64,000 nucleotides of DNA from Thermoplasmata archaeon (GTDB taxonomy: Archaea > Thermoplasmatota > Thermoplasmata > Lutacidiplasmatales > UBA184): positions 1-64,000 of the forward strand of contig JAKIWV010000001.1 in NCBI GenBank assembly GCA_022749815.1, written 5' to 3'. The translations under genes were made by a program, and so were the position numbers. Shown here piece after piece: positions 35,178-61,783 of this stretch. Every line of letters begins with the position of its first letter. Positions within the stretch are counted from its first letter, which is position 1. The notes beneath the pieces were generated by a model. That model was not told the DNA's origin. It worked only from the letters and a program-made list of their open reading frames with translations, and did no database searches.

Positions 35178-36797
35178 TCACACGTAACCCCAAGAGCGGA
35201 GCCGCTCTTGAAGGTCATCGGAGGGCCCTTGCCCATCGCTCGCCAGAGAGATCTGCCCGGCGACCTTTCGCGCGAACAATTCTGCCCGCGCCCCATCTTC
35301 TCCCGGCACGGTCCCCAGATCAGAGGCCTCTTCAGGATCTTTGTCGAGGTCGAATGTGCTTACCCTACCGGAGCGGGCTTCGAAGATGACCTTGATTCCT
35401 CCCGAGTAGGCGATGGTGTGGAGTCGAGGCGCCCGAGCTCTGACCTGCTCTCTGTTCCCAATCCGGTTCACCTCGATGAACGGATACTCGTCCGCCATTG
35501 CAAGAACGGGTGCCTGCCGCTTGAGCGGCAGACCTTCCTGCAAAGGGATTCCCGGCAGTGAGGGACTCTTGTCGAGGCCGGCGGCGCGAAGTAAGGTCGG
35601 CGCGACATCGACAAGGCTGACAGGGTCAGAATGCTTGATACCACCCCCGTTTCCATGGGGCCAGCGGATCCACAGAGGTACGTGGAGGACGGTCTGGAAC
35701 GGGCTCTGTGCGTGAAACACATTTCCATGCTCGCCAAAGGCTTGACCATGATCGCTTGTGACAATCAACAGGGTATTGTCCCAACGCCCAGCCCGTTGGA
35801 AGACTCGTATGATTGAGTCTACCCGCCGATCCAGGCCTGTCAGGATCGCTTCGTAGAGCCGGCGGAGCAGGTCCAACTGCTCCTGTGTCGGTCGCTCTTT
35901 TCCTCCCGAAAAGAGTCTCGCGTTCTGGGAGATCCGGGCGAACCGAAGCCACGACCTCAGGCCGGGAAGGACCGTCCCATCGCTCAGGTACTTCTCGTGC
36001 AGGTCCAGCAGATTCACGAAGCAATGGACGGGGCGCTCGGTCGGCTGGTGTCTAAGCCAACCCTCGAGGGCCGGTTCGATCCACGAGGCCACGGGTGGTG
36101 ACCCTGAATCCCCCGGGCTTCGAAGGATGTGGGCTAATCGATTCAAGGCGTCGACCAAGTTTCCAATAGCTCGGTCGGCCTGAGGCCCGGCGAATACGAC
36201 CCTTGAAAGTTCGTGCCGGACAGCCTCTTGAAGGGAAGGTGTGACTCCCTCCCTTCTGAGAAGGGATTCAGGACGGAGGCGGGCGCGACGATGGTACAGA
36301 CCCTGGCTCAAAACGGATAGCAGGGTCAATACACTGAACGGTCGATTCTCAGGTTCGCCCGAGAGCGCTTCGGGTGAAATCCATCGCAGACTCTTCTCCC
36401 ACCATTCCGCGCAGCGAGACTCCTCGAAAGAACCTGGTGAAGAGAAAAGAGTGCCGACCAAACCGTTCGCGCTCAGCGCTAGCGTGCCATAGCCCTCCTG
36501 TCGAAGCATCCCCGCCACGGTCGGGATGGTCTCGTCGAGCTGGAGTCCGCCTTCCCCCATCACGCCGTGTTCCCACGGGTACCGTCCGGTGAACAAACTC
36601 GCGTGGGACGGAAGGGTCCAGGGGGCGACCGTCGACGCACGGGTGAAAATTGTGCACTCGGCCTTGAGACGCTCGAGCGAGGGGAACGAACCAACCGGGC
36701 CGCCCGTTTCCGGGAACGAGGACGCACGGGCGCAGTCCAAGAGGATGACAACGAGGTTTGGCCGGCCAACTATGGGTCGCTGCCCATGGTCCACCAT
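35178..36797 (-). CDS. Alkaline-phosphatase-superfamily protein, sulfatase-like but with Thr nucleophile (copy 1)
   Basis: The 539-residue product has the AlkP/sulfatase core: VVILLDCARAS with metal ligand Asp at about residue 21, WTLPSHASLFTGRYPWEHG at about 60-78, and VTSDHGQAFGEHG near 348. In true sulfatases the second block has Cys or Ser before x-P-S-R; here it is Thr, so formylglycine-type sulfatase activity is unlikely. Phosphatase, phosphodiesterase or phospho-group transfer is more probable, as in Thr-type relatives such as LtaS. No signal peptide is visible. It ends LRSWGYV, a tail shared with copies 2 and 3. A CTTATAC element about 28 bases upstream of the ATG fixes the start. Confidence 0.85.
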   Translation of the reverse strand: MVDHGQRPIVGRPNLVVILLDCARASSFPETGGPVGSFPSLERLKAECTIFTRASTVAPWTLPSHASLFTGRYPWEHGVMGEGGLQLDETIPTVAGMLRQEGYGTLALSANGLVGTLFSSPGSFEESRCAEWWEKSLRWISPEALSGEPENRPFSVLTLLSVLSQGLYHRRARLRPESLLRREGVTPSLQEAVRHELSRVVFAGPQADRAIGNLVDALNRLAHILRSPGDSGSPPVASWIEPALEGWLRHQPTERPVHCFVNLLDLHEKYLSDGTVLPGLRSWLRFARISQNARLFSGGKERPTQEQLDLLRRLYEAILTGLDRRVDSIIRVFQRAGRWDNTLLIVTSDHGQAFGEHGNVFHAQSPFQTVLHVPLWIRWPHGNGGGIKHSDPVSLVDVAPTLLRAAGLDKSPSLPGIPLQEGLPLKRQAPVLAMADEYPFIEVNRIGNREQVRARAPRLHTIAYSGGIKVIFEARSGRVSTFDLDKDPEEASDLGTVPGEDGARAELFARKVAGQISLASDGQGPSDDLQERLRSWGYV

Positions 36798-37180
36798 TCC
36801 GCACCGCCTATCTTTCCTCCTGTATAAGGTCGGCAGAAGCCAAAATCGCGAATCTTGCACGATCGGGCCCGTGGGGTTCGGCGCACACAGCCTATGTCTT
36901 GGACGGTTACTCTCTCAATGGCCCAGGCTCCGTGCCGCCGCCAAGGATCAACGGGGGGCCCTCGGGACACGCCGGCTACCGTCTTCACCCGCAGGGAACA
37001 GACCGTACAGCAGGGCCGAGCTACCCGAATGGTTTTCCGCCGCGTGAGATGAGTTTCAAAAAGGTTGTATGGGTGTCGAGAAGCCCCCTCGGAGGCTTTA
37101 TTCTTCGAATTTTACCGGACGCCTCAACTGACTTTGGGCTTTGATCCCAATGGAGCTGTTTCCGTCCGAGCAGCAACTCG
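36798..37180. other. Intergenic region upstream of AlkP-like copy 1
   Basis: The gap holds the minus-strand TATA-like CTTATAC (36822-36828) for the AlkP-like gene and an A-run near 37056 that reads CTTTTT on the minus strand, a possible terminator of the methyltransferase gene. No gene supported. Confidence 0.45.
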
Positions 37181-40360: not shown

Positions 40361-40788
40361 TGATGTAACCCTCCCCTCGTTGATAACAGAATCTGCCCGA
40401 TCTATCCTAGCTCGGCCCCGGGCTCGAGCTGAACCCGATTTTTGCGTCACGCGCCTTCCGTCGGAGTAGGTCATCTGTGCGCTCGCCTAGACTACGAATT
40501 CCCGCTCTTCGCACCGCCAGTACAGCCATGCAGTTAGGGGTCCGCGCCCGCTTCGACTTCCTTCTACTGAGAAATAACACTAGTCCGGAAAACAGAAATA
40601 GAGGAACCGAACCATGTTTCGATTCCAGGGCCCCCAAGTCCACCCTTCCCAGGGGGTGGGTTACGAGAGGCCGTGCAGCATGCAGTTTGTCTCACCCACC
40701 GAATCGGGTCTTTCGCGCATAATTGACAGGATCCGAGCTAACTCTAAAGAGTGGCCGGTCTGGGTGGGGTGACGCGCAAGGACCCGCA
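40361..40788. other. Divergent intergenic region
   Basis: These 428 bases are less GC-rich than the flanks. A TTATCA element near 40383 (minus) and TCTAAAGAG near 40741 (plus) are weak TATA candidates. I see no gene that I can support. Confidence 0.4.
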
Positions 40789-43700
40789 ATGCTGAATGAG
40801 GGGCACCCCGGTTCACCGGGAGGTCCGGGCGCGGATACAGATTCGGGGGTTTCGCGGGGGGGCCGCGAGGGATATCCCTCCACGATAAGCTCGGCGTCGC
40901 AAACTTTTGAGGGCCAATCAAATCGCTCGACCCCACACTTGGCTCCTTCGTCTGGACAAAGGCCGTGGCGTCCATGGGACAATCCATTAGCGGACCGCAT
41001 TCGCGAGCTCACATGGCACCACAGATTCGCAATATTCGCAGCTGTGATTTATCTTCTTCCGGTTCTGATCATTTCTCGCCTGGAGTTCATCGCGGCAGCT
41101 GGTCAATATCCTCAGGGAACTAATGCCCTCAATGCTTTTTTGATTTACAGCCACTGGCGGAACTTTCCCCTTGAGGCATGGTTCTATCCATGGACCGATT
41201 GGGGCGAACTGATCTCGACCTACACCGGACCCAACGTGCTCTACCTCGGCGCTTTGACTCTCGATACGTCGACTCTGATTCGGATCCTTGAGCTGGGTTC
41301 ATTTTGGGGTTCTGGATGCGCGATGTATGCCCTTCTTCGAGGGCTTCACGCCAGCAGACTCGGGGCTTTCACAGCTGGCTTCTACTACCTTCTGCTTGAG
41401 CAAACCCCCCAGTTCTTTGAAGGGCATGTCCCCAGCATGATTGGATTGGCCGTCGCACCCCTCTTCCTGTTGGTTCTTCATCGGTTTGGCTCCAGACCAC
41501 GACTCGGATGGGGAGTCGCTGTCGCATTGCTGTTGTACCTCCTTGCGTCGATAGGCGACCTGAGCGTCCTGTACTTTCTCCTGTGCTTTGGGATCCTGCT
41601 CTTCGTTTACGATACTCTGCGGAGCGGCTGGTTTCGCCACATCGAGCGGTCGCATCTCGTTGCACTCGGGGTTACTGCCGGTTTGTTTCTCGTGCTCATG
41701 GCTCCTTGGTGGCTTCCATATGCCGTCGGGGTTAGACCGAAGTATTTTACCAACCTGCTCGGCATCATCCCTCCATTCTCACAGGCCGGCGGGGAGAACA
41801 TTTCCGTGGCCTTGCAGGGAATCGTCCAAGAGAACTCGTTCAGCCGGATCGTCTATGGCAGTCCCACCTACGCCACTGAACTCGGGAGCCTCGATCTTTT
41901 GTATTACCTCGTACCAGCCGCCTCGATTATCTACCTCGTCCTTCGTCGCTCCCTCGACAAGGTTGCGCTGTTCGCCGCTGGGCTTCTCGGAATCATCGTT
42001 TCCACCGCGGGAACGCACCCCGGACTATCGACGTTCAACGGCTTTCTCTACACTTATGTCCCTTTTTTCAACTACATTCCGGATCTTAGGCTCTGGCTAG
42101 AAATCACAGTCGTCGTCTACTCAATCTTTGTGGGTTGGTTGGTTACTGACCTTTCGGCCGTGCTGGCGAATGGGATTCTCCGAGCGCCCCCTGTGGCCCT
42201 CTCCGGCCCGACCCAACCCGTACTCATCGAGGAAGAGATCGATTGGAAAAGCGAGCGTGGTGTCGTGCACCGGCGTCGTGTTTGGGCGCCTCCCTGGGCG
42301 ACTTCCGTCCGAGTGGGCCGTCTCCCAATTCCCAAGTCGGTTAGGTGGATACTTCCGGTTGTCTTGTGTGGGCTCCTCTTGAGCACTGTGGTCCTCGAGA
42401 ACTCGGAGGCCTTCAGTTCGCCACCGGTTCTCTTTCGCTTCCCGGACCCATACCTCGCTGGCTTCGAGTACATTGCTCATCAGCCGGACCGCGGGGGGAT
42501 CCTCACGGTTCCATTTTCAGCGATTTACGAGCGCACCCCATGGGGCGGAGTCTCTGTGAGCACCCTTGTCATGTCAACCACCCTCATAGGGCGCAATGCG
42601 GTTGTGTTTGAAGGGGGCACCCCCTACTCGGCTGCGATGGATCAATTCGTGGCCGGAGGGCTCGTTAGTGGCAATACGAACAACGTATCCAAGTTCCTCG
42701 CCGGTTCAAACATACAGTGGATCACCGCCACCAACTACACGAACTGGTCGTACTCCAGTAGCGGGTACTACAGCCCCCGAGAATCCTACGAACGGCTGTC
42801 TCAGCAGGTGGGCCTCGGGGCCGCGGTCTATTCGGGTAGCATACAGTCCGTCTACGAGCTTTCGAATGTTGCCGGGAACGTGTCGTTCCACCCCTCTTAC
42901 TTCGTCTACTACGGCTCCAGTTCCCTGATCAACGAACTGACCAACGAGCCGAGCTACAACGGGACGCAGGTCTTGCTTAATGGGTCCGCCCTCAGCGGTT
43001 CGACCATTGCTGCTTTCATCGAACACGCTTCTGGCTTGTGGGGCAATGCCTCAACCATTTCCGCTCTTTCGCCGGCGATGCTAAACGCTGCGGTGACTCG
43101 CCACACACCCATCAGCGTGGTCCTGGGACCTGGGGATGTCCAAACGACCCCGATTCCACGAGTTGGCTCCGCGTTCACCGCGAGCAACGCTGTCGCGGTC
43201 CGTCTTCCGGCGATGCTGGGTCAGCTCGAATACTCCTTTCCCCAGTCGAACTTGGTGAACGCGGGAGCCACAACCGTTCAAGGAAACTTGCGAGCGTCTT
43301 GCGCGCCGGGGACCTTGCTCACCCTCTCAAACAGTTTATCGGCCTACAAACTGCCCTACGACCCACCCGGAACTCGTTATCAGGCGCTCAACCTCGCCAG
43401 CCTAGGGGCTGCCGCCCTCGAACCCCCCGACACGATCAACGTTTCCAACGCGACCGGTGTCCCGTACCTAATTTGGACCGTCGTGCCGAGCGACCAATCT
43501 CCACAGTACTTCCAGTTCAAAAATGTACACAATCTGAGCGGAGTCACGGGACTGGCACTCACGCTAAACAACCGAACGGGCCTTCCCCCCACTCTTGGCG
43601 TAAACCTCGATTTCAACAATACCTGGGTCAGGGTCTTTGGAGATCCGTTAGCCGGACCCCCCGGCGGTACCGCGACAACATACTCGTTCAATCTTGCCGC

Positions 43701-44304
43701 GGATATCGGACCCGGGGCGGGGACGCTCGCGCAGTACCGGGGGAACTTGACGAATATTGAATTCGGAACAGAGGCGAGTGGAACCGCGACTGCTCTGAAT
43801 GTGACAAACCTTTCGCTGATTAGATCCCCCGCCTCCGGCCTGTATCAGAACATTCTGACCCCCGCTATGACCCTCGTCGGATCTAGCTCCATCGGACTGA
43901 GCGCGACCTCTCAATGCCTGATCGATACGCTTACCCTCAGTACCACTGCCCCGAGGGGTGGATCGGGTTTCACACCCTACTACGGGAGTCAGCCGATTCC
44001 TACGAGCATCAAGTTGACTTCGAGGGACTCGGGTTGGGGCATTCTACAGGCAGCACAGACTTATGACAGCCTGTGGGGGCTCACGCTCGACGGATTACCC
44101 GCTGGTGCCCACGTCCCAGGCAACATCGGCCTGAATAGCTGGCTAGTCGACCTGTCGGTAGGAGCCCATATATTGATAGCGTACGGCGGACAAGATTACG
44201 TGACCATCGGGACGATTGCTGAGGGCGTTGGCCTTACGGTGTTCGTTGCGATTGCGGTGGTTGCGCGCGTGAAGAGTAAGAGATCGCGAACGCTCGTCCT
44301 CTGA
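40789..44304 (+). CDS. Giant multi-pass membrane protein, GT-C-like, with large extracytoplasmic beta domain
   Basis: The 1171-residue product has about 65 polar residues, then around 12 membrane helices (residues about 80-520), a long extracytoplasmic region (about 540-1130) and a final helix (VGLTVFVAIAVVARV) with a basic tail. Topology and length resemble AftD/YfhO-like GT-C proteins. No oligosaccharyltransferase WWDxG motif is present. The extracytoplasmic part is rich in NxS/T sequons and holds beta-strand-like repeats (NVSFHPSYFVYYGSS, LGVNLDFNNTWVRVFGDP) suggestive of carbohydrate binding. I start it at ATG 40789; the ORF track uses a TTG 22 codons earlier. Exact function unknown. Confidence 0.78.
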   Translation: MLNEGHPGSPGGPGADTDSGVSRGGREGYPSTISSASQTFEGQSNRSTPHLAPSSGQRPWRPWDNPLADRIRELTWHHRFAIFAAVIYLLPVLIISRLEFIAAAGQYPQGTNALNAFLIYSHWRNFPLEAWFYPWTDWGELISTYTGPNVLYLGALTLDTSTLIRILELGSFWGSGCAMYALLRGLHASRLGAFTAGFYYLLLEQTPQFFEGHVPSMIGLAVAPLFLLVLHRFGSRPRLGWGVAVALLLYLLASIGDLSVLYFLLCFGILLFVYDTLRSGWFRHIERSHLVALGVTAGLFLVLMAPWWLPYAVGVRPKYFTNLLGIIPPFSQAGGENISVALQGIVQENSFSRIVYGSPTYATELGSLDLLYYLVPAASIIYLVLRRSLDKVALFAAGLLGIIVSTAGTHPGLSTFNGFLYTYVPFFNYIPDLRLWLEITVVVYSIFVGWLVTDLSAVLANGILRAPPVALSGPTQPVLIEEEIDWKSERGVVHRRRVWAPPWATSVRVGRLPIPKSVRWILPVVLCGLLLSTVVLENSEAFSSPPVLFRFPDPYLAGFEYIAHQPDRGGILTVPFSAIYERTPWGGVSVSTLVMSTTLIGRNAVVFEGGTPYSAAMDQFVAGGLVSGNTNNVSKFLAGSNIQWITATNYTNWSYSSSGYYSPRESYERLSQQVGLGAAVYSGSIQSVYELSNVAGNVSFHPSYFVYYGSSSLINELTNEPSYNGTQVLLNGSALSGSTIAAFIEHASGLWGNASTISALSPAMLNAAVTRHTPISVVLGPGDVQTTPIPRVGSAFTASNAVAVRLPAMLGQLEYSFPQSNLVNAGATTVQGNLRASCAPGTLLTLSNSLSAYKLPYDPPGTRYQALNLASLGAAALEPPDTINVSNATGVPYLIWTVVPSDQSPQYFQFKNVHNLSGVTGLALTLNNRTGLPPTLGVNLDFNNTWVRVFGDPLAGPPGGTATTYSFNLAADIGPGAGTLAQYRGNLTNIEFGTEASGTATALNVTNLSLIRSPASGLYQNILTPAMTLVGSSSIGLSATSQCLIDTLTLSTTAPRGGSGFTPYYGSQPIPTSIKLTSRDSGWGILQAAQTYDSLWGLTLDGLPAGAHVPGNIGLNSWLVDLSVGAHILIAYGGQDYVTIGTIAEGVGLTVFVAIAVVARVKSKRSRTLVL

Positions 44305-47076: not shown

Positions 47077-48585
47077 GTGGTTGAGCGAAGACCCGACATC
47101 CTGGTCCTTGTGCTCGATGCAGTGCGCAGTTTGGACGTCTTTTCGCCGCTGAACGGGGATATTGCTCTCCCGTTTCTCCGCCGATTTGGGAAGACCTCGG
47201 TTGTATTCCCGAAGGCGGTCGCCCCGGCAGCGTGGACTGTGCCCTCCGTTGCAAGCCTAATGACCGGGCTGTACCCTTGGAATCACGGCGTCTCGGTCCT
47301 CGGTTCCAGCTTCCTCAACTCGTCGGTCCCAACATTGGCCGGAACGCTCCGAGAACACGGGTACGCTACGATCCTCCTCTCGGCCAACGGAGTCATCAGC
47401 CCCCGGACCAACCTTTCGAGCGGGTTTGAACGCGCCTACTGGGCTGCTTGGTGGGAGCAATTCCTGCGTCTTCCCCGTGCAACTCCTGCGGGACTGCCTA
47501 CGAAAACTCCCTCCTCAGAGCAGAGACTAATCCGGGGTCGTAAGCACGGCTTCAGGACTCTCCTCAGGCGTGGTATGCGGCTTGGGCTGCGCTATCCTCA
47601 GATTTTACAGGCTGGGAACCTAATCGCCCAGCGGCTCAAAACCCCCGGTTCGCCGTCGAGCCTGGCCATCTGCCCCTGGATTGAACCTGTCCTCTCAAGT
47701 TTCCTGGCAGGCACCACAGTGGAAACTCCCGTGTTCGCATTTCTCCACTTGAACGATGCCCACGAACCGTACTATTCTCAGCCCGGCTCCCTGCCCGGAG
47801 GGTCCGAGGAGAAGCTCCAGATGAGCCGACAGGACTACATGCGTGTCATCGAGGGTCGGTGGAGCCCCTCCGACCGGGAATTAGAGACCCTGCATCGCCT
47901 CTATGTCAACATGCTCCGAGTCCTCGACGCCCGGATACAAGGAATAATCGAGCATTTCCTGGAAGTCAGAGGGGCGGAGAACTCCTTTGTCGTTGTCACG
48001 GCGGACCACGGGCAGGCCCTCGGGGAAGGGGGGTGGCTGTTTCATATGGCCAGCCCGGACGAGGCGGTTCTCCGAGTTCCGCTTATCGTCCGCTTCCCGA
48101 ACTCTCAAATCTCTGGAGTGGCGCGTGGTTGGGCAAGCCTGGTAGATGTGTTCCCGACCATTCTCGCGACGGCGGAGGTGCCAACCGCTGGAGAGACCGA
48201 CGGAGTTCCGCTGATGAAACTCCTCGACGCTGACAGGGAAACCCCGGTGTGGGCGCTCGGAGACGGACTGCCCTGGCGCCATCTGGAAGGGATTGTATTT
48301 GCCCCGGGGGAACGGCCGGGGAAAGGTCTACCGGACCGGAAATGGATTGCTTCGTACGAGGGGGCGGGCAAGTCTCTGTATGATCTTCGAAGGAGAATGT
48401 TCACATACAGTCGAGTCGACTTTCCGCCGGCCATGGCGGGAGCCTCTGACGGAAGTGAAGAGGGTCCCAGCCCCACTGTTCAAAACCAGGTGATCGTTCT
48501 AGCAAGGAAGTTTCGAGAGCAAGCCCCTTCGTCTGACGAGTCGGAAACCCTGCGACGGCTCAAATCCTGGGGATACGGTATCTGA
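47077..48585 (+). CDS. Alkaline-phosphatase-superfamily protein, sulfatase-like but with Thr nucleophile (copy 2)
   Basis: The 502-residue product parallels copy 1. It has ILVLVLDAVRSLDVF with Asp14, AAWTVPSVASLMTGLYPWNHG with Thr54 at the sulfatase Cys/Ser position, FLHLNDAHEPYY, and VTADHGQALGEGG with Asp310 and His311. Copies 1 and 2 also share ILLSANGV-like text followed by an AWWE(Q/K) block, so they are close relatives. The tail reads LKSWGYGI. No signal peptide is seen, so a cytoplasmic or non-classically exported location must be considered. Hydrolysis or transfer of a phosphate ester on glycan or lipid is inferred, not shown. GTG start right after the first possible codon of the domain. 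Confidence 0.85.
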   Translation: MVERRPDILVLVLDAVRSLDVFSPLNGDIALPFLRRFGKTSVVFPKAVAPAAWTVPSVASLMTGLYPWNHGVSVLGSSFLNSSVPTLAGTLREHGYATILLSANGVISPRTNLSSGFERAYWAAWWEQFLRLPRATPAGLPTKTPSSEQRLIRGRKHGFRTLLRRGMRLGLRYPQILQAGNLIAQRLKTPGSPSSLAICPWIEPVLSSFLAGTTVETPVFAFLHLNDAHEPYYSQPGSLPGGSEEKLQMSRQDYMRVIEGRWSPSDRELETLHRLYVNMLRVLDARIQGIIEHFLEVRGAENSFVVVTADHGQALGEGGWLFHMASPDEAVLRVPLIVRFPNSQISGVARGWASLVDVFPTILATAEVPTAGETDGVPLMKLLDADRETPVWALGDGLPWRHLEGIVFAPGERPGKGLPDRKWIASYEGAGKSLYDLRRRMFTYSRVDFPPAMAGASDGSEEGPSPTVQNQVIVLARKFREQAPSSDESETLRRLKSWGYGI

Positions 48586-50454: not shown

Positions 50455-51903
50455 TCAGACGTAACCCCAAGCCGCCAATCGAGAGAGACCCGGTTCCGGA
50501 GGCGGGCCGTTCGAGGGCAGCATGTTCGAAGAACGTTTCCGCAATATCCGATTCGCCCAACTGCCGAGGCCCTGTCGGTCATCGGCCGAGGAGGGTTCCG
50601 GAAAGATGGTTGGAGGGAGCGCTCCATATGACCAACCGAACCCATGGGCTTCACCCTCAAAGGCCCGAACCAGCCGATAGGGTGTTCGGACGCGCCGGAA
50701 TGGGTGGTTGCCATCAAACGCGTGCCCCTCGTAAAACGACGTTCCAGGTCCAAGGGGTTTGCATCGCTCCTCAAGTGTGGCAGGATCAATGCGAAAGCCA
50801 TCCTGATGAACAGCGTCGATGAGCAGGCGGTTCGCATGCCGATGGTCAAGCCAGGGAACGTCGCCCCTTAATGGCACGGCGATTGCGTTGTCGGAATGGT
50901 CAGAGGTCCAGACGATAAAGGGAACTTTGATCAGTTCGTCAAAGAGGTGCCGCGCATGCCCGAGGAACCGATGCTCTCCAAGGCATTGCCCGTGATCGCT
51001 GACGACGATAACGCACGCGTCGTCGAGGACTTCGAATCTCCTGAGAAGCTCGAACAGGCTCTGAAGTTGTTCGTCGAGCTCCTGCACGGCCCGAATGTAT
51101 AGCGACACCAGATGCGCGGCGTGTTTTACTACGGGTGGGATTCCTCGCGATGAGTAGCTCAAATTCGCAGTCGGAAGATCACAGCCGGATAGCGAACGAA
51201 GGTGGGTACCGCGATTCGGGTTGTAGGGTTCGTGCGCCTCCATGAGGTTGATGAAGAGATGAAGAGGCAACTTGGAACTACGATTCCTGAGGTAACGGCC
51301 CAAGGCCCGCCGCAACGTGCTCCCGCTGGCCAACTTCCGATACACTCGGGCGGTGAGTAACGAGGCGCCCCCTACCAGCAGATTCGCTGTGGACGAGGCT
51401 TGGGGGACGCTTCCTCCGCCGTCAATTTGATCGCAGGAGAGCATCCTGACCACATCTACTGCGCTGGATGAGAAGTGCGAAGCCTGCGCCAACGCAGACC
51501 ATAATGTCGTCTGTCCGGACTCATAGCCCAAGGATGAAAGGAACCGTCCAGTTAGAATTGGATTCGCAGAAAACGCCACCACTTCCCCGCCGCGTTCAAC
51601 CCACGCCTGCGCCACGGAAGAACGACGCGATGAAGCGGCGTCGCGACCCGCATCGGAAGAAGCGTCCCATGGTGAAAAGCCTGCGAGAAGTGAAAGATGG
51701 GATGGTGTGGTCCATGAGGACGAAGAGATGAACCGGTCGTAGTGCCCCCCCTCCTTCGCGAGTGCGGCGAGGAATGGCATGTACTCGAGGATTGAACTCC
51801 CCTTTGCGGCCCCGACGCCTCGGAGCGAGTCCGCGACAATCACGACTAAGTTTTTCATCGAATGAGCCCTGCCTTCGAGATAGTCAGGGTACGATGTTGA
51901 CAT
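50455..51903 (-). CDS. Alkaline-phosphatase-superfamily protein, sulfatase-like but with Thr nucleophile (copy 3)
   Basis: The 482-residue product has LVVIVADSLRGVGAAKG with Asp25, SSWTTPSHLSLLAGFSPWD with Thr65 at the nucleophile position, FINLMEAHEPYNPNRG, and VVSDHGQCLGEHRFLGH with the DHG and following His ligands. It is more distant from copies 1 and 2 but has the same order of blocks and the same kind of tail (RLAAWGYV). GGAGGT four bases before the ATG at 51903 supports this start; a Met 15 codons on directly precedes the first strand and is the alternative. No signal peptide. Function inferred as for copy 1. Confidence 0.84.
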   Translation of the reverse strand: MSTSYPDYLEGRAHSMKNLVVIVADSLRGVGAAKGSSILEYMPFLAALAKEGGHYDRFISSSSWTTPSHLSLLAGFSPWDASSDAGRDAASSRRSSVAQAWVERGGEVVAFSANPILTGRFLSSLGYESGQTTLWSALAQASHFSSSAVDVVRMLSCDQIDGGGSVPQASSTANLLVGGASLLTARVYRKLASGSTLRRALGRYLRNRSSKLPLHLFINLMEAHEPYNPNRGTHLRSLSGCDLPTANLSYSSRGIPPVVKHAAHLVSLYIRAVQELDEQLQSLFELLRRFEVLDDACVIVVSDHGQCLGEHRFLGHARHLFDELIKVPFIVWTSDHSDNAIAVPLRGDVPWLDHRHANRLLIDAVHQDGFRIDPATLEERCKPLGPGTSFYEGHAFDGNHPFRRVRTPYRLVRAFEGEAHGFGWSYGALPPTIFPEPSSADDRQGLGSWANRILRKRSSNMLPSNGPPPEPGLSRLAAWGYV

Positions 51904-52419
51904 GAAACCTCCGCAGGGTCTTTCTGGGTCTCCCAGCGAAACTAATCGCGCAGAACCGCACTCAGCTGCTTTATCTCGTCTAATCGGGGGGGCGCCGTCG
52001 GGCTTAGGGGCTCCCCGAATCCCGGTCGGCTTGTCGGTCAACGTGCCCTTTGCTCTGGAGCATGCCGACTTGCCCGGGCATAGGTGCGCCCACAATTCGA
52101 CGATAAGAAGCTCTCAGCTTGGCGCAGCAACCGGGCAAACCAGGCCCTCAACTACAAGGCACATGTATGTTGTAAATTCTCCTCCTTTTTCCGCGGGGCA
52201 TTCCAATCTTCACAGTCGTTCAAGTGGGCGAATTGATCCCCTAGTCAGTAAATTTGGAGTCTGGTCCCCTCACAAATATCTCGGTCTCCAAGCCCGCTAA
52301 AAAGGTCTCCCCTTGCCCCTCACGTCGCTTGACCGTGTTCCCGACGCGCGCGAATCGCTTCGAAAGAGGCGCCGAGTTTCATGCAGCGCCTTATGCGATA
52401 GAGGCCCTGACCGCCGTCC
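51904..52419. other. Divergent intergenic region between AlkP-like copy 3 and a GT2 gene
   Basis: The 516 bases include T-rich tracts and, at 52389-52396, CCTTATGC, a TATA-like box about 28 bases before the GT2 GTG. The ORFs crossing it show no recognisable protein. Confidence 0.45.
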
Positions 52420-53235
52420 GTGACCGAAGTAAGCATTGTCGTCCCAACATTGAATGCGGCCACGAATCTCCGCCGCTGCCTGGATTCGGCAAGACAACAG
52501 ACCTTCCAGGACCTGGAGATCATTGTCGTAGACGCCCTATCAAGCGATGATACCCCGAGCATCGCGAGCGCGTACGGTCGCCTGGTCCAATCAGACGTAG
52601 GAATGACCGAAGCTCGATACATCGGAACGCTCGCGGCTAAGGGACGATTCGTGGTGAACCTCGACTCAGATCAAGTACTATCTCACACCGCGATCGAGGA
52701 AGCGCTCGCCGCGAAGAAGCCGATGGTGGTGTTCGAAGAGACGGGTGTAGGTTCCGGCCTAGTGGCGCTGATCAACCGGCTCGAGAAAGCTACCGTGCAG
52801 AAGGACTGGAGACGGAACCTTGATCCAATGAGCGGGGCGGTTCGTCCCAGGTTCTACGAGAGGCAACGCCTCATTATGGCACTGGAGTCGATTCCTTCGG
52901 AAATAAGGGGTATCCGTCCATGTCCCTATGCTGAAGACACCCTAATCTACCGGGCAGCATCCCGCATGGGCGGGGAGGTTGGTTTCGTTCCTCATGGGAT
53001 CGTCCATTCGGAGGAAGCTAGTCTTAGAGGATACCTCGGAAAGTGGTACTCATACGGAAGCGCTGCGAGCGCGTACCGCGGAACGGAGTTGGCCGTTCTC
53101 GCCGAGGCCAGAAGTTTCAATCGGCTAGCTCACTCGCGGAATCCGGCGGTCATGGCAGCTCTCGGCGTCCGAGCATTCCCTTTCTTTGTGGGCTATTACA
53201 TCCGACCAAGAAGGACTTGCCCAGCAGTTACGTAG
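52420..53235 (+). CDS. GT2 glycosyltransferase
   Basis: The 271-residue product has VSIVVPTLNAATNLRRCLDSA, IIVVDALSSDDTPSIA and RFVVNLDSDQVLS, the usual GT2 order with LDSDQ as the DxD motif. YAEDTLIYRAASRMG is the acceptor-side (E)D block, and EASLRGYLGKWYSYG resembles the C-terminal region of archaeal GT2 enzymes with R-Y-G-x-G-like loops. Soluble, cytoplasmic; donor unknown. The GTG start is at leaderless spacing from a TATA-like element. The 3' end is convergent with a GT4 gene. Confidence 0.86.
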   Translation: MTEVSIVVPTLNAATNLRRCLDSARQQTFQDLEIIVVDALSSDDTPSIASAYGRLVQSDVGMTEARYIGTLAAKGRFVVNLDSDQVLSHTAIEEALAAKKPMVVFEETGVGSGLVALINRLEKATVQKDWRRNLDPMSGAVRPRFYERQRLIMALESIPSEIRGIRPCPYAEDTLIYRAASRMGGEVGFVPHGIVHSEEASLRGYLGKWYSYGSAASAYRGTELAVLAEARSFNRLAHSRNPAVMAALGVRAFPFFVGYYIRPRRTCPAVT

Positions 53236-53336: not shown

Positions 53337-54509
53337 CTAGGAATTACCTTGCCCTACTAGGTCAGAGTACAATCTCAGGAGGCTTCGAGCAACGACGTCG
53401 TATTCGTGATGAGAACGGACGGTATCCAGACTTGCCCTTCCAAGTCGAGTTACTTCTTCAGGTCGCTCGCTCAGACGGGTGAGCATCGAAGACAATTCCG
53501 GCACCTCGTCTGGATTCACAACCATCCCGTTTACGCCGTCAGAGACGTAGTCTGCGAACCCCCGGGAATGCGACACCAAGAGCCCCTTACCGAGCGCCAT
53601 TGCTTCGAGAGAGAGATACCCTCCTTGATCGAGAATGTCTCTCAACTGAACGACCATATCTGCTTGCGCCAACTCTGAGTAGAAGTTCTCTCGCTCGAGG
53701 TAAGAAACCGTTCTGATTGTCACTCCGGTCGATCTGGCCTTCTGTATCAAGCCCTGCATTCGTGCAGACCCAGCCCCAACGAGGACTACGTCGCATCGAC
53801 GAGCAGCACTTTCGGGCATCACCGCACAGGCCCGAAGGAACTCCCTAACGTGATTGCGGGGCCTTGCGAGATCGCGCTCACCGACTAGAAGCCGCAGTCT
53901 GCCACCAGGAATCATGGGGTCGATTGCGTGAAAGTTTCTCGGAACATCGACGGGACACGGGATGTAGACGGCCCGGCGGCAGGTTTGGGTCCAGGCTTGC
54001 ATCCCAGCGGTCGTCGTGAAGACGCAGCTCGCCGCCTTCGAGTAGCCCTTCCTATCTTCTAGATAGTAAGCCGCGTGGCCGAACGACGCGACAACTCGCA
54101 TCGACCCTGAGAAACTTCTTGCCCCGTATGCGATCATCTCGAGAAGTGTTCCGTAGGACCAACCAGTGATGACGAGGGGGATCCCGAGGGTGCTGAAGTA
54201 TCCCGTGCCGTACGGTGAGTGAAAGACATCAACTTGCTTGGCCAACATCTCGACCGTTTTTGCAATTCTGCGTCTGACGAGCCCATATGCGACTTGGGGC
54301 CCGCAAATGTCGAGCCAAGCCGGGTCAGGTCCTAAATCGATGTAGTCAATGCCTCTTCCAAGTTCTCGCTGGAGAGCTTGCACACCGAATCCGAATAGCT
54401 TCACTCGAAAGCCCGAACCTGAAAGCGCGGCGGCCAAGTGCCGAGCATACGAAGCCATGCCCGACCCTGATGGGCGGTAAGGCCCCACGGCGACTGTCAA
54501 ATCGGTCAA
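53337..54509 (-). CDS. GT4 glycosyltransferase
   Basis: The 390-residue product begins LTVAVGPYRPSGSGMASYARHLAAAL, the GT4 N-terminal glycine loop. It has VFHSPYGTGYFSTLG and LRLLVGERDLARPRNHVREFL in the linker and second-domain start, then VVQLRDILDQGGYLSLEAMALGKGLLVSHSRG, a GT4 donor-site block in which the first Glu of E-x7-E appears to be replaced (DQGGYLSLE). This may be a variant active site. Cytoplasmic. It lies just downstream of the 1264-residue membrane protein on the same strand and is probably co-transcribed. Confidence 0.86.
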   Translation of the reverse strand: MTDLTVAVGPYRPSGSGMASYARHLAAALSGSGFRVKLFGFGVQALQRELGRGIDYIDLGPDPAWLDICGPQVAYGLVRRRIAKTVEMLAKQVDVFHSPYGTGYFSTLGIPLVITGWSYGTLLEMIAYGARSFSGSMRVVASFGHAAYYLEDRKGYSKAASCVFTTTAGMQAWTQTCRRAVYIPCPVDVPRNFHAIDPMIPGGRLRLLVGERDLARPRNHVREFLRACAVMPESAARRCDVVLVGAGSARMQGLIQKARSTGVTIRTVSYLERENFYSELAQADMVVQLRDILDQGGYLSLEAMALGKGLLVSHSRGFADYVSDGVNGMVVNPDEVPELSSMLTRLSERPEEVTRLGRASLDTVRSHHEYDVVARSLLRLYSDLVGQGNS

Positions 54510-54641: not shown

Positions 54642-57600
54642 CTACCTTCTCCGAATCGTCCGCGACCACCACATTCCCAGCTTGGAGTTCTCCAGTTGCG
54701 ATCTCAGGGCGGAATCCTTCGTTGATGGCGAGATAGCCAAATAGAGAAGGAATCCCGACCAAGCGACAATTGCTGGATAAGTCAACTCTAGTGTGTGAAT
54801 CGACGTGTACTGAATCGAGCCGTTTGTGGCGGCAGGAGAAGGGACCACAAAGAAGGCAGTGTCATCTATCGATTGCCGGCTCGGGTATGTTCTACCCTCC
54901 CAAGTCAACGTCAGGTCGGGGTAGTAGGGTTGAGCGAACACGACGACGGTCGGCAAGAAACTTGTGAGATTTGCATCAGGTGGGTTCAAGAGACTGGCTA
55001 CGCTCAAGTTGCCCGCTAGCACCAATCCGGTAGGTGCGACGGCCGTCGACCACGAATACGTTTGACCTCTGATAGAATTGACGGGTTGACCGTTCAGCGT
55101 GCCTGAACCCTTCCAGAGGACCATGTAGATTTTGGAGGGGAGGTTCAAGCCCACCCTCTCACCAGCGAGGTCATAGGACCCCCCGAACGGGAGTGAACTA
55201 TTTGCCGCGACGTAGACCCAAGAAAGGTTGACGTCCTTGAATTGGACCGACCCCGTGAGGTTGAGCGCTTGCAGGCGAGGGGTAAAGTACGTCGTTCCTT
55301 CGGGTAGTGGGAGATTGATCCGGACAGTCGCCCATTGGGGTGAAGGAGCTAGATTGCGGACCGACCCAGGCAGCTGTTGAAAGCTTCGATTGACCTCGAG
55401 GGTGTAGGCCTGAAGTTGTCCTGTGAAGTCTGGAGACGTACGGTAGCCGAAGTCTAGGACGGCAACTGGAACCTGCGAAAGACTGTTCGAGACAAACACC
55501 CCCCCATCACCCGAGGCGAGAGTCCCGTTGTAGCTGAGAGACACCACCGGCGGGGCAGCCCTGCTCGACCAGGTAAGTGTCCCTCCTCCGTAGGTGGTAT
55601 TCAATGGAATTCCCCCCCAGTTGGTGCTGGTCCAACCATAGATATCGATTGAATCCCCGACTTGAGTCGTCGTGAGGTTTAGGGAACGGTTCCCCCAGGA
55701 GATACTCACGTTCTGGAACTCTGCCTGCCCCGCAAATTCTGAAACCTGAACGCGGACATCGAAGTACGCAGTCGATGTTGGTAAGAGGGTTGAAGCTGAT
55801 ACGACATGCCACGGGATTGAGGGCGTTAGTGGGAGATTGGAGAATCCCGTCGGGCTGAGCTTGGAGTCATCCCCGTAAGTATAGACACTAAGGTTTCCGG
55901 AAAAACTCGCCGACGTTCTGTACTTGAAGGTCGTGGTTACTTGGATCGGGCCCACTTCAGGATTGAGAACTCGGACACCTCCTGGCGCGCCTGAAAGCGT
56001 TCCGTTGTAACTCAGCGAGACCGCACTCAGGAAACTGGAACTATCCCATCTAAGATCTCCGCCCTGAAAGGTTACTTGCAGCGGCTTGGTCCCCCAGTTC
56101 GTGTTGGTCCAATTCCCCAAAGATAGTTGCCCATTGTTTTGGGTGGTGTTTATTGGGGGCCCTCCCGTCCCTAGGTTGGTCACGTTGCCCATCGGGAAAG
56201 TCTGGTGGATGGGGATGTTGGAAACAGAGGCGTTAGCGTAGTTTCTTAGGCCGCTCAACCCGATGAATCCGGGGGTATAGGCTTCAAGCGACGCGGGGTA
56301 ACCATCGATCCCAAAGGTCGGCGCGCTGGAGTTATCTAAACTCAGGGCCACGTTCTGGCCGAGCGACTTGAACAGTGCGTACGATGTAGAAGCGGCCTCG
56401 GTCGCAGGCGCACCAGCGGAGATAAGTTTCGCAGGGTACACTGAACCGAGGGCTCCTGGGAGGTCATAGATTGTGAGGTCGGGACCCGAGAAGAACTGAT
56501 TCAGCCCGGGAGCAGCGTTGACGACGTTCCGAATGGCTGCGTAGTCTGGGAGACCGTATTCTCGCATCAAGGCGCTCGGGAACGAGTCTTGTACCACGAG
56601 GAACCGTACGTTGTTCGCCGCAAGATACTGGACTAGGTCGACGGTGAGGTTGTGCGAGACCAGAAACGGTAGGGACGGGAGAGGGGAGAGTGGTTTTGGG
56701 GCGTCGGACCCGTGGAATAGATATTGATTCTTCATGAGTCCGGAGGTGTCGGCACCTCCACTCGGCCAGTAGATGTTGAACGCACCCGGTTGATCCCTGA
56801 TGATGGAGTAGGCTTCTACGATGTCAGGCTGGAAATGCACAGGGGTGAACGGGGCGGAGTCTGGGACACCGTTTCCACTGACGTAGGTTCCCGAGGCCCG
56901 GGAAGGGTAGTACGATCCGTTTAGCCCCTGCCAGCCCGCGAACAACACGAGGCAGATCATGAGCATCGTCAATGTGGGAACAATTGCCGCGGTGAAACGG
57001 ATTGTACGGCGATGAGAATAAAGCAGATTCTCGTTCGTAGCGGGCCGGAGGGGTTGTAACACGCGGCGATGGACGAAGGCACCTCGAAGAAGTCGAAGAC
57101 CGCGCTCGATAGCGGACGCGACGTTGAGCAGCCCAACGGGCAGAAGCACGACGTAAGACGCCGCCACAAGCAGTAGAAAATGCTCCGGAAGGGCAAATGC
57201 AGTCCCGATTTCACCGCCGACGAGCGGGATACGTGTAAGGTCGGCAACGGCTGAAACGCCCCCGGAGTCCAGACCGAGGACGGACAGGGCAATCCCCACG
57301 AGACCGGCGAGAGCTACGGGCAGGACCGTCTGTCGGGACCGGTATGAGAGAAGCGCGGACCAGGCCACCATCGGCCCGGCGAAAATGGAAAGCAGCCAAA
57401 CAGTCGTAAGAGGGCTTTGAGGAAGCAATATTTGAGTCGGACTTCCAAAAGAAGGAAGAGCGGAAATCGAAGCCCCCGCCGCCAGGATCGAGGGAGGAGC
57501 GAAGGTCACCGTGCTCCAGTAGTATCCTAGGAGTGACAACGACTGAAGAGGACCAGAGTTTACACTCCCTGCCTGGATCGCGCTCGGGTCGAATGCACGA

Positions 57601-58436
57601 TAGTTGTAAAACGGTCCCGACGGAACAGCTGTTGAATGGATTGCGAGGAGTATGAACACGAGGGCCGGGAGTTGCAGCGCGAAACAGAGTGCCAGGTTGG
57701 CGAGACTGCGCCGTAGTCGAAAATGCAGCAACCCCCCAATCACGAAGGTAAGTACTAGGAGGACTGCGAATTCCGGATAATACACCGGATCTAGAAGGAT
57801 CCCGAAAGAAGAGAATGCGGCCGCTGAATAAACCCCGCGGCGTCCCAAATTGAAGGTCAGCGCGAGTACGCAGGAAAGTACTGCAAGTTCGAGGACTAGA
57901 CTATCCGAGACCGTTCCGCCGTCGGCATTCGCGTTGATGGTGAAGAAATTCGTCGCCACGAAGAGCACGACAAGGAATTTCAGGCCCTCTCGACTGAATG
58001 TTGAGAGGCGCGACCCTCGACTCCTCTCAGCAAGTCGGACGCTAAATTCAGCGATGACGTAAGCAAGGACAAGGAAGATGAGAAAACTGAAGACGATGAA
58101 AGCTTTCTCTTGTTCAGCCAGCCCGCCGAAGGTGACACGAATCAGGAGGAGTGGCCAGGTCACAAAATCTCGGGTAAACTGGAATGGTGAAGCAATCCCG
58201 TTGACAATCATTCCCGGAGAGAACACACCTGAGGGGAACGGCCCAGGCGCGACTGGCCAACTTTGGTCTGAGTATGCGTAATAACCATTCCCGAAGAGAT
58301 AGCTGCGGAGGCTAAGCACGAGGACGACCGATACTGCTGAGCCTTCTACAACAGCCAGCTTCCACCTAACCAGGATCCACATCAGAAGGTCCCTGGGGAT
58401 TCCTGAGATCGCTTGGAGACGCCGTCTCACACTCAT
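54642..58436 (-). CDS. Giant multi-pass membrane protein, GT-C-like, with tandem extracytoplasmic beta domains
   Basis: The 1264-residue product has about 12 membrane helices in its first 500 residues, a long extracytoplasmic part (about 510-1230) and a last helix with the basic tail SRTIRRR. Residues about 640-700 contain HNLTVDLVQYLAANNVRFLVV, a pattern known from YfhO/AftD-like GT-C proteins. Two homologous beta domains follow (about 770-925 and 930-1080), each opening with a W-T-x-TNWG motif and containing VSLSYNGTL. They may bind the growing glycan. Sequons (NxS/T) are very frequent. No oligosaccharyltransferase motif is seen. Acceptor and donor unknown. Confidence 0.8.
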   Translation of the reverse strand: MSVRRRLQAISGIPRDLLMWILVRWKLAVVEGSAVSVVLVLSLRSYLFGNGYYAYSDQSWPVAPGPFPSGVFSPGMIVNGIASPFQFTRDFVTWPLLLIRVTFGGLAEQEKAFIVFSFLIFLVLAYVIAEFSVRLAERSRGSRLSTFSREGLKFLVVLFVATNFFTINANADGGTVSDSLVLELAVLSCVLALTFNLGRRGVYSAAAFSSFGILLDPVYYPEFAVLLVLTFVIGGLLHFRLRRSLANLALCFALQLPALVFILLAIHSTAVPSGPFYNYRAFDPSAIQAGSVNSGPLQSLSLLGYYWSTVTFAPPSILAAGASISALPSFGSPTQILLPQSPLTTVWLLSIFAGPMVAWSALLSYRSRQTVLPVALAGLVGIALSVLGLDSGGVSAVADLTRIPLVGGEIGTAFALPEHFLLLVAASYVVLLPVGLLNVASAIERGLRLLRGAFVHRRVLQPLRPATNENLLYSHRRTIRFTAAIVPTLTMLMICLVLFAGWQGLNGSYYPSRASGTYVSGNGVPDSAPFTPVHFQPDIVEAYSIIRDQPGAFNIYWPSGGADTSGLMKNQYLFHGSDAPKPLSPLPSLPFLVSHNLTVDLVQYLAANNVRFLVVQDSFPSALMREYGLPDYAAIRNVVNAAPGLNQFFSGPDLTIYDLPGALGSVYPAKLISAGAPATEAASTSYALFKSLGQNVALSLDNSSAPTFGIDGYPASLEAYTPGFIGLSGLRNYANASVSNIPIHQTFPMGNVTNLGTGGPPINTTQNNGQLSLGNWTNTNWGTKPLQVTFQGGDLRWDSSSFLSAVSLSYNGTLSGAPGGVRVLNPEVGPIQVTTTFKYRTSASFSGNLSVYTYGDDSKLSPTGFSNLPLTPSIPWHVVSASTLLPTSTAYFDVRVQVSEFAGQAEFQNVSISWGNRSLNLTTTQVGDSIDIYGWTSTNWGGIPLNTTYGGGTLTWSSRAAPPVVSLSYNGTLASGDGGVFVSNSLSQVPVAVLDFGYRTSPDFTGQLQAYTLEVNRSFQQLPGSVRNLAPSPQWATVRINLPLPEGTTYFTPRLQALNLTGSVQFKDVNLSWVYVAANSSLPFGGSYDLAGERVGLNLPSKIYMVLWKGSGTLNGQPVNSIRGQTYSWSTAVAPTGLVLAGNLSVASLLNPPDANLTSFLPTVVVFAQPYYPDLTLTWEGRTYPSRQSIDDTAFFVVPSPAATNGSIQYTSIHTLELTYPAIVAWSGFLLYLAISPSTKDSALRSQLENSKLGMWWSRTIRRR

Positions 58437-60700: not shown

Positions 60701-61783
60701 TCACGCACAGCAGGACTTCAGCACGAGCTCGAACGCGTCAGCAGCACTTCCCCAATCGCGTGTTTGGGAGTTTGCGGAGCACTTACGAGACCATCCCTCG
60801 GGCTCAGTCAAGATTTGCTCGCAAGCCGCCACTGCCTTCGCCACGGCGCCGTCTTCGACGAGGAGACCAGTGCGGTCGTTCTGGACGGACTCTGCCATGC
60901 TCGAGTTCAAGTAGGCCACTGTTGGGACACCCGCCGCCGCCGCCTCTAGTGCCGACAGACAAAGTCCCTCGCTAACGGAGCAATGGAGATTCAACCAGGA
61001 AGAACCCACCAGTCTTCCAAGCTCTTCATCCTCGAGTCGGCCCACCAATTCGAGGCGGTCGGCAACGTGTAACGCTTGGGCATAGGCGCGCACCTTGGGG
61101 AGGCTCGGTCCGGTTCCAACAACTACCAATTTCACCGGCCATCCACGTGCCACCAACAACTTCAGCACCAGGACGGCGTGCTCGGGCCGTTTGTAGTCCC
61201 GAAGGCCCCCAAAGTAGATAATCTGGGGTTCGGCAGCCTTCTGCCGAGGATGAAATATCCTCCGGTCGACCCCCAACGGCAAAAGTGTGACCCGGTCGGA
61301 AGGCACGCCGAGGCCTTTTAGATCGGCGACGGAGGACCGGGAAATAGTAACGAACTTCCAGGACGAGTAGATTGAGGGGTAGAACCTTTCGAAGGTTCTC
61401 AATAACGCCTCGGCGACCGGGTTAACTTGGCCACCTAGAGTTCGAGCGTGAAGATGGTAAAAGAAGGCCACGCCAGGGGTTCGAGTAAACCAAGGGCTAA
61501 GCCAAGGCGCAGCATGGCCGAGGTCATCGACAATCACGTCGAACGTCGAGCCCAGAGCGAGTCGCGCCGGAACAATCACGTGCGGAAGCCCGAAACGGCC
61601 TACTCGTAGGATTCGTACCCCAGCAACGACCTCTCGAGTTTTCCCGCCGCGAAAAGCCCCGGAGATGACTGTCACTTCGTGCCCCCGCTCGACCAATCCA
61701 GAACCTAACTCACGGACGACCCGTTCTACACCACCGCCGAGCGGATTGGACGCGTCGCGATGACAAGCCCAGAGAATCTTCAT
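60701..61783 (-). CDS. GT4 glycosyltransferase
   Basis: The 360-residue product starts ILWACHRDASNPLGGGVERVVRELGSGL, a GT4 N-terminal domain with the GG-G-E loop. It has VTLLPLGVDRRIF, IIYFGGLRDYKRPEHAVLVL (second-domain start) and LNLHCSVSEGLCLSALEAAAAGVPTVAYLNSSMAESV, a donor-site block close to E-x7-E with SEGLCLSALE. Cytoplasmic, donor unknown. It is convergent with the methyltransferase pair. ATG start at the first strand. Confidence 0.89.
   Translation of the reverse strand: MKILWACHRDASNPLGGGVERVVRELGSGLVERGHEVTVISGAFRGGKTREVVAGVRILRVGRFGLPHVIVPARLALGSTFDVIVDDLGHAAPWLSPWFTRTPGVAFFYHLHARTLGGQVNPVAEALLRTFERFYPSIYSSWKFVTISRSSVADLKGLGVPSDRVTLLPLGVDRRIFHPRQKAAEPQIIYFGGLRDYKRPEHAVLVLKLLVARGWPVKLVVVGTGPSLPKVRAYAQALHVADRLELVGRLEDEELGRLVGSSWLNLHCSVSEGLCLSALEAAAAGVPTVAYLNSSMAESVQNDRTGLLVEDGAVAKAVAACEQILTEPEGWSRKCSANSQTRDWGSAADAFELVLKSCCA

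Follow-up and report, generated by a model that had tools for sequence, protein, structure and literature searches.

Cell-surface glycan assembly in the Thermoplasmata has, to our knowledge, been little studied, and one gene in the 64,000-nucleotide stretch of a Thermoplasmata archaeon genome analyzed here (the window) raises the question of whether a membrane glycosyltransferase of this class might hold its glycan with a duplicated domain. The initial annotation described the product as a GT-C-like protein whose extracytoplasmic β domain is duplicated in tandem, interpreted the copies as two carbohydrate-binding modules (CBMs), and regarded the plan as one not described for any archaeal enzyme.

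Layout of the protein and its internal repeat

The reading frame is open throughout, from an ATG at 58436 to a stop at 54642 on the reverse strand, and its limits and length of 1264 residues agree exactly with those first given. The following parts are distinguished:

54642–58436, − strand: whole open reading frame (1264 aa), with a GT-C-like membrane domain, a predicted extracytoplasmic region containing the duplicated module, and a C-terminal transmembrane helix
56922–58436, − strand: multi-spanning GT-C-like membrane domain, residues 1–505, about 11–13 helices (hydropathy, AF2 helices, Foldseek neighbors)
58266–58268, − strand: Asp57, candidate catalytic residue in the first extracytoplasmic loop, within Y-[SA]-D-Q-x-W (alignment)
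56148–56921, − strand: first extracytoplasmic region, residues 506–763, kept in relatives (alignment; first sequon at residue 506)
55695–56147, − strand: module A, CBM4/9-like β module, residues 764–914 (self-alignment, profiles)
55218–55670, − strand: module B, the second copy, CBM4/9-like β module, residues 923–1073 (self-alignment, profiles, AF2/Foldseek)
54792–55199, − strand: terminal β domain, residues 1080–1215, kept in relatives and without detectable kinship to the module (alignment, profile comparison)
54726–54788, − strand: C-terminal transmembrane helix, residues 1217–1237 (hydropathy, AF2 helix)

Residues 764–914 and 923–1073 align without a gap and are identical at 59 of 151 positions (39%; E = 1e-29 in a BLASTP comparison of residues 740–922 with residues 923–1085), and the Smith–Waterman score of module A against module B is 268, as against 35 ± 6.4 for shuffled sequences (maximum 60, n = 1000; z about 36). 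The self-dot-plot proposed as a check was carried out by comparing the full-length protein with itself without gaps, which gave one outstanding diagonal at an offset of 159 residues with a score of 270, the runner-up offset scoring 58. The tandem duplication is therefore confirmed, with its limits slightly shifted: two copies are indeed present, but both start a little earlier than the 770–925 and 930–1080 originally indicated. All of the motifs listed for the copies were recovered—namely W-T-x-TNWG (W776 to G782 in A and W935 to G941 in B), GG-x-L-x-W, VSLSYNGTL, GGV-x-V, and (V/L)SW, the last of which reads ISW in copy A.

The DNA of the two copies is only 46% identical, indicating that the duplication is old and did not arise in assembly. 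Thus, a repeat produced by sequencing, assembly, or frameshift error, a reading that deserves practically no weight, is refuted by the divergence between the copies, and the frame is open from end to end.

Fold of the modules and of the membrane half

When the full-length protein and its relatives were searched against Pfam and NCBIfam, no family scored above cut-off (matches to DUF7789 and PraA in these scans were treated as noise), and modules A and B, searched individually, had no match in Pfam. In a single-sequence search of the PDB, antibody light chains were returned for residues 1135–1182 at E values of 0.05 or worse, and were set aside as chance matches.

Among PDB sequences, the best match to a profile of 11 modules from the family was the Endoglucanase H domain 1v0a/2lro (E = 0.19), which we take to be a CBM11. 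The Pfam CBM_4_9 model (PF02018) weakly matches three of the 11 modules (best E = 0.014, below cut-off), at least two of which come from closely related proteins and are hence not independent. When the module profile was compared by hhalign with a CBM_4_9 profile built from Pfam matches in other archaea, a remote similarity lying mainly in the C-terminal 82 columns, all collinear, was detected (E = 5e-5, probability 67%, score 33.8). By comparison, 40 column-shuffled profiles scored at most 13.8 and the reversed profile 12; the scores with Ig-like, PKD, and the family's own terminal-domain profiles were 14.5, 8.0, and 14.9, respectively. AF2 modeled the ectodomain as all-β with a pLDDT of 57, module B being the best predicted part, at moderate confidence. 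Foldseek searches with this model returned the tandem CBM22-CBM22 structure 4xup and surface glycan-binding protein B 7kwb together with other β proteins, of which the Vip3, Cry, reelin, and IBDV matches were read as generic β-sandwich similarity and discarded. The relation to CBM_4_9, CBM22, and CBM11 thus takes the form of a collinear profile match and a tandem CBM22 fold match, with the window modules below every curated cut-off. On the controlled profile match and the concordant sub-threshold matches, the module is most likely a jelly roll of the CBM4/9 or CBM22 type. The structure prediction and fold search suggested at the outset gave an all-β model, of low confidence, with CBM neighbors as well as other β proteins. 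The original CBM assignment is supported as regards the fold, and sugar binding by the two modules remains putative.

With respect to the membrane half, hydropathy analysis showed a strongly hydrophobic stretch with repeated helices over residues 1–505, and placed a final helix near residue 1220. None of the 21 N-x-S/T sequons falls within residues 1–505, the first being at residue 506, as expected if residues 506–1215 are outside the cell; an extracytoplasmic location of the C-terminal half is accordingly well supported. The AF2 model of the membrane half has a mean pLDDT of only 51 (low confidence). Nonetheless, the first nine Foldseek matches to it in the PDB are all GT-C enzymes or oligosaccharyltransferase (OST) complexes—AftA, STT3/OST, DPY19, and ArnT—with AftA as the best neighbor, although without a sequence match to it. 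Every match with a Foldseek probability above 0.5 belongs to this GT-C/OST group, the next falling to 0.15, and the best E value is 3e-3. The TM-scores, all 0.29 or below, are low because the AF2 model is poor.

Asp57 and Gln58, located immediately after the first transmembrane helix, are invariant in 10 aligned proteins and near-invariant when two further relatives are included (G023, which keeps the Asp and has Trp for Gln, and G049, in which the Asp is Asn). The first extracytoplasmic loop of the window protein contains no DxD, DD, or ED motif. Asp57 is a candidate for the catalytic base. The GT-C-like description is supported by topology, sequon placement, the Asp after the first helix in most relatives, and the fold search with its low-confidence model, and the membrane half likely adopts a GT-C fold.

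Relatives and module number

Among 100 related genomes, the closest relatives are two proteins from the same family-level group, 27–28% identical to the window protein and with one copy of the module each. When 400 genomes of the class were searched with a profile, 12 of them, including that of the window, proved to encode the family, and a scan of named genomes found ten loci, all in Thermoplasmata and one of them in Acidiplasma aeolicum; several of these ten repeat genes of the 400-genome set. The open reading frame in G220, for example, coincides with that of A. aeolicum in coordinates, length, and score, and since G220 is of the same class as the window genome, this places the window organism in the Thermoplasmata. 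The one-module form is common to more than a dozen Thermoplasmata proteins, one of them in Acidiplasma. No relative was found in the viral contigs searched or in five congeneric genomes (G001–G005, 82–90% complete). The glycan island thus appears to vary among close species.

The module profile, run over the family proteins, detected a single module in each except the window protein, which has two; a search of the 400 genomes with the module alone gave the same picture, with one module per open reading frame, in long frames, and a pair only in that of the window. A divergent relative (L034, in G195) has a full module at residues 866–999 and, upstream at residues 690–830, a weak partial one (iE = 0.012 before it joined the profile; hhalign probability 40%), and may thus hold a second, possibly independent, tandem arrangement. 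Alignment of the relatives showed the 159 additional residues of the window protein as a clean insertion, and the single copy of the relatives pairs with either module A or module B, varying by alignment run. Modules A and B are 38–39% identical to each other, whereas the pairwise identity of either to any relative is at most 30%; support in the module tree is too low for the duplication to be placed in time, and it is the pairwise identities that point to a duplication after divergence from the known relatives. Nearly all relatives have one module, and the second is, on these comparisons, an expansion specific to the window protein among those sampled.

Genomic setting, proposed function, and known counterparts

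The gene lies in an island that contains GT2, GT4, sulfatase-family, methyltransferase, and GDP-mannose-dehydratase (nucleotide-sugar) genes. Three glycosyltransferase genes are of particular relevance:

52420–53235, + strand: GT2 glycosyltransferase, conserved partner of the GT-C family (Pfam PF00535)
53337–54509, − strand: GT4 glycosyltransferase, just downstream of the GT-C gene on the same strand (Pfam PF00534)
60701–61783, − strand: GT4 glycosyltransferase, with homologues near the GT-C gene in relatives as well (Pfam PF00534)

At least six other genomes (G049, YP3.bin60, G238, S147_20/G359, G130, and TL2-1/G142) have homologues of the GT2 gene that adjoin the GT-C gene or lie close to it, and the GT4 protein encoded at 60701–61783 is 33–45% identical to neighbors of the GT-C gene at five loci (L024, L044, L039, L026, and L027). 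A search of the genome for a GtrA-type flippase found none. A GT2 and GT-C pair is the usual set-up in which a sugar is loaded onto a polyprenyl carrier and added to a glycan on the outside (PMC11127046). The conserved GT2 partner, often together with a GT4, suggests that a sugar carried on a lipid is added to a glycan outside the cytoplasm.

We lean slightly toward the explanation that the protein is a GT-C enzyme of a Thermoplasmata cell-surface glycan island, with the acceptor held by its CBM4/9-like modules. The neighboring GT2 would load a sugar onto polyprenyl phosphate, and the GT-C domain, probably with Asp57 as base, would transfer it, on the outer side of the membrane, to an acceptor that is a glycan or a glycoprotein. 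This acceptor would be gripped by the C-terminal jelly-roll module, and the tandem duplication might add another binding site, serving avidity or a grip on a longer or repeating glycan. Four elements of this scheme are inferred: the lipid-linked donor, the identity of the catalytic residue, the binding of sugar, and what the second copy does. Counting against the explanation are the lack of any family-library match above cut-off, also for modules A and B taken singly, the low pLDDT of both models and the low TM-scores, the absence of a DxD, DD, or ED motif from the first loop, the Asn at the position of Asp57 in G049, the negative search for a GtrA-type flippase, and the finding for the bacterial enzyme ORF12 that the CBM is dispensable for the reaction (PMC11127046). 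That module number (one or two) sets glycan length or repeat in a new archaeal GT-C family whose CBM4/9-like modules read the acceptor polysaccharide, as a built-in chain-length ruler, is unlikely.

It is possible, if rather doubtful, that the duplicated β modules are structural, forming a stalk or a contact surface for a cell-surface layer or partner protein and binding no sugar, with the GT-C part as the enzyme. Jelly-roll and Ig-like domains are frequently spacers, a role in thermal stability has been suggested for the β-rich IS, P1, and P2 units of archaeal AglB (PMC3703281), and the CBM_4_9 match is a distant one that lies mainly in the C-terminal columns. However, the profile match is specific to CBM_4_9, being absent with profiles of Ig or PKD domains from the same clade; W776, W781, W797, Y810, and W876 are common to both copies, though some may be core residues; and GT-C enzymes elsewhere use such domains for the acceptor (PMC11127046). 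The conserved GT2 partner, along with the invariance of Asp57, Gln58, and several other loop positions in the remaining relatives, makes it very improbable that catalysis has been lost from the membrane part and that the protein acts as a membrane receptor or scaffold for glycans, a reading to which the loss of the Asp in G049 and the sparse, divergent family would lend themselves.

A transfer of whole glycans instead of single sugars, by an OST-like or polymerase/ligase-type enzyme, is distinctly unlikely. STT3/OST structures are among the Foldseek neighbors and big C-terminal ectodomains are typical of OSTs. Archaeal AglB, of the STT3 family, is a GT-C protein with a large extracytoplasmic C-terminal domain containing β-rich units (PMC3703281). 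The top structural neighbor, AftA, is by contrast a single-sugar transferase. Furthermore, since the window protein lacks both the WWDYG motif and a PF02516 match and its genome encodes a separate STT3-family protein with WWDYG on contig 3, it is not an AglB. The latter, the only STT3/AglB match of the genome (G000 contig 3, from about 230450 onward; L085:2451-8501), occupies an open frame of more than 2000 aa, in which the OST catalytic part is followed by more than 1000 β-repeat-like residues, and is unusually long for an AglB.

The reading as a GT-C enzyme with acceptor-holding modules has precedents in bacteria. The mycobacterial arabinosyltransferases EmbA, EmbB, and EmbC combine a GT-C membrane domain with extracytoplasmic β-sandwich CBMs, two of them in EmbB (PMC7341804), and the W868A substitution in the CBM of EmbC strongly reduced pentasaccharide binding and LAM synthesis (PMC3044687). 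AftD, like AftA a mycobacterial protein, is described as a GT-C enzyme with acceptor-binding CBMs (PMC11127046). The two CBMs of EmbB are N-terminal and C-terminal, respectively, and not a tandem duplicate, unlike the putative CBMs of the window protein; comparison of the latter with Emb and AftD gave no Pfam match and no PDB sequence match at E values up to 10. In the GT136 enzyme ORF12 of Citrobacter youngae O1, which belongs to a lipid-linked-donor system, a C-terminal CBM binds the acceptor O-antigen (PMC11127046). ORF12, with its GT-C domain and C-terminal CBM, resembles the GT-C-like and CBM-like layout of the window protein, and differs in being bacterial, in its length of about 650 aa, in its single CBM, and in adding ribofuranose.

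A limited literature search found no description of the GT-C and CBM plan in archaea, and to that extent the claim of an undescribed archaeal enzyme stands; it does not extend to the plan as such, with the one-module form present in more than a dozen Thermoplasmata proteins and GT-C enzymes with a CBM, or even two, known in bacteria (PMC7341804, PMC3044687, PMC11127046). The plan is not new in kind, and is an uncharacterized archaeal variant of a known bacterial GT-C/CBM design. The protein represents a new archaeal family that probably functions in the manner of bacterial GT-C/CBM enzymes, and in the window protein itself the module has been expanded in tandem. The combination of a family lacking a database model, a conserved GT2 partner, and a species-varying number of CBM-like modules offers a concrete handle on Thermoplasmata glycan assembly. 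The one-module relatives, one of which is in a named strain with a genome record (Acidiplasma aeolicum), form a natural control for the effect of the second module on acceptor choice or glycan length.

Two other features of the island may be mentioned. A second giant membrane protein (40723–44304, + strand; 1193 aa) spans the membrane several times in its N-terminal half, and its long C-terminal half looks outward; it has no Pfam match and, considered as a possible relative of the module, was dismissed after profile comparison gave no match. In addition, three genes of the PF00884 sulfatase/phosphodiesterase family are present (35178–36860, 47077–48585, and 50455–52095), suggesting sulfated or phospho-modified glycans or a phosphoglycerol-type transfer.
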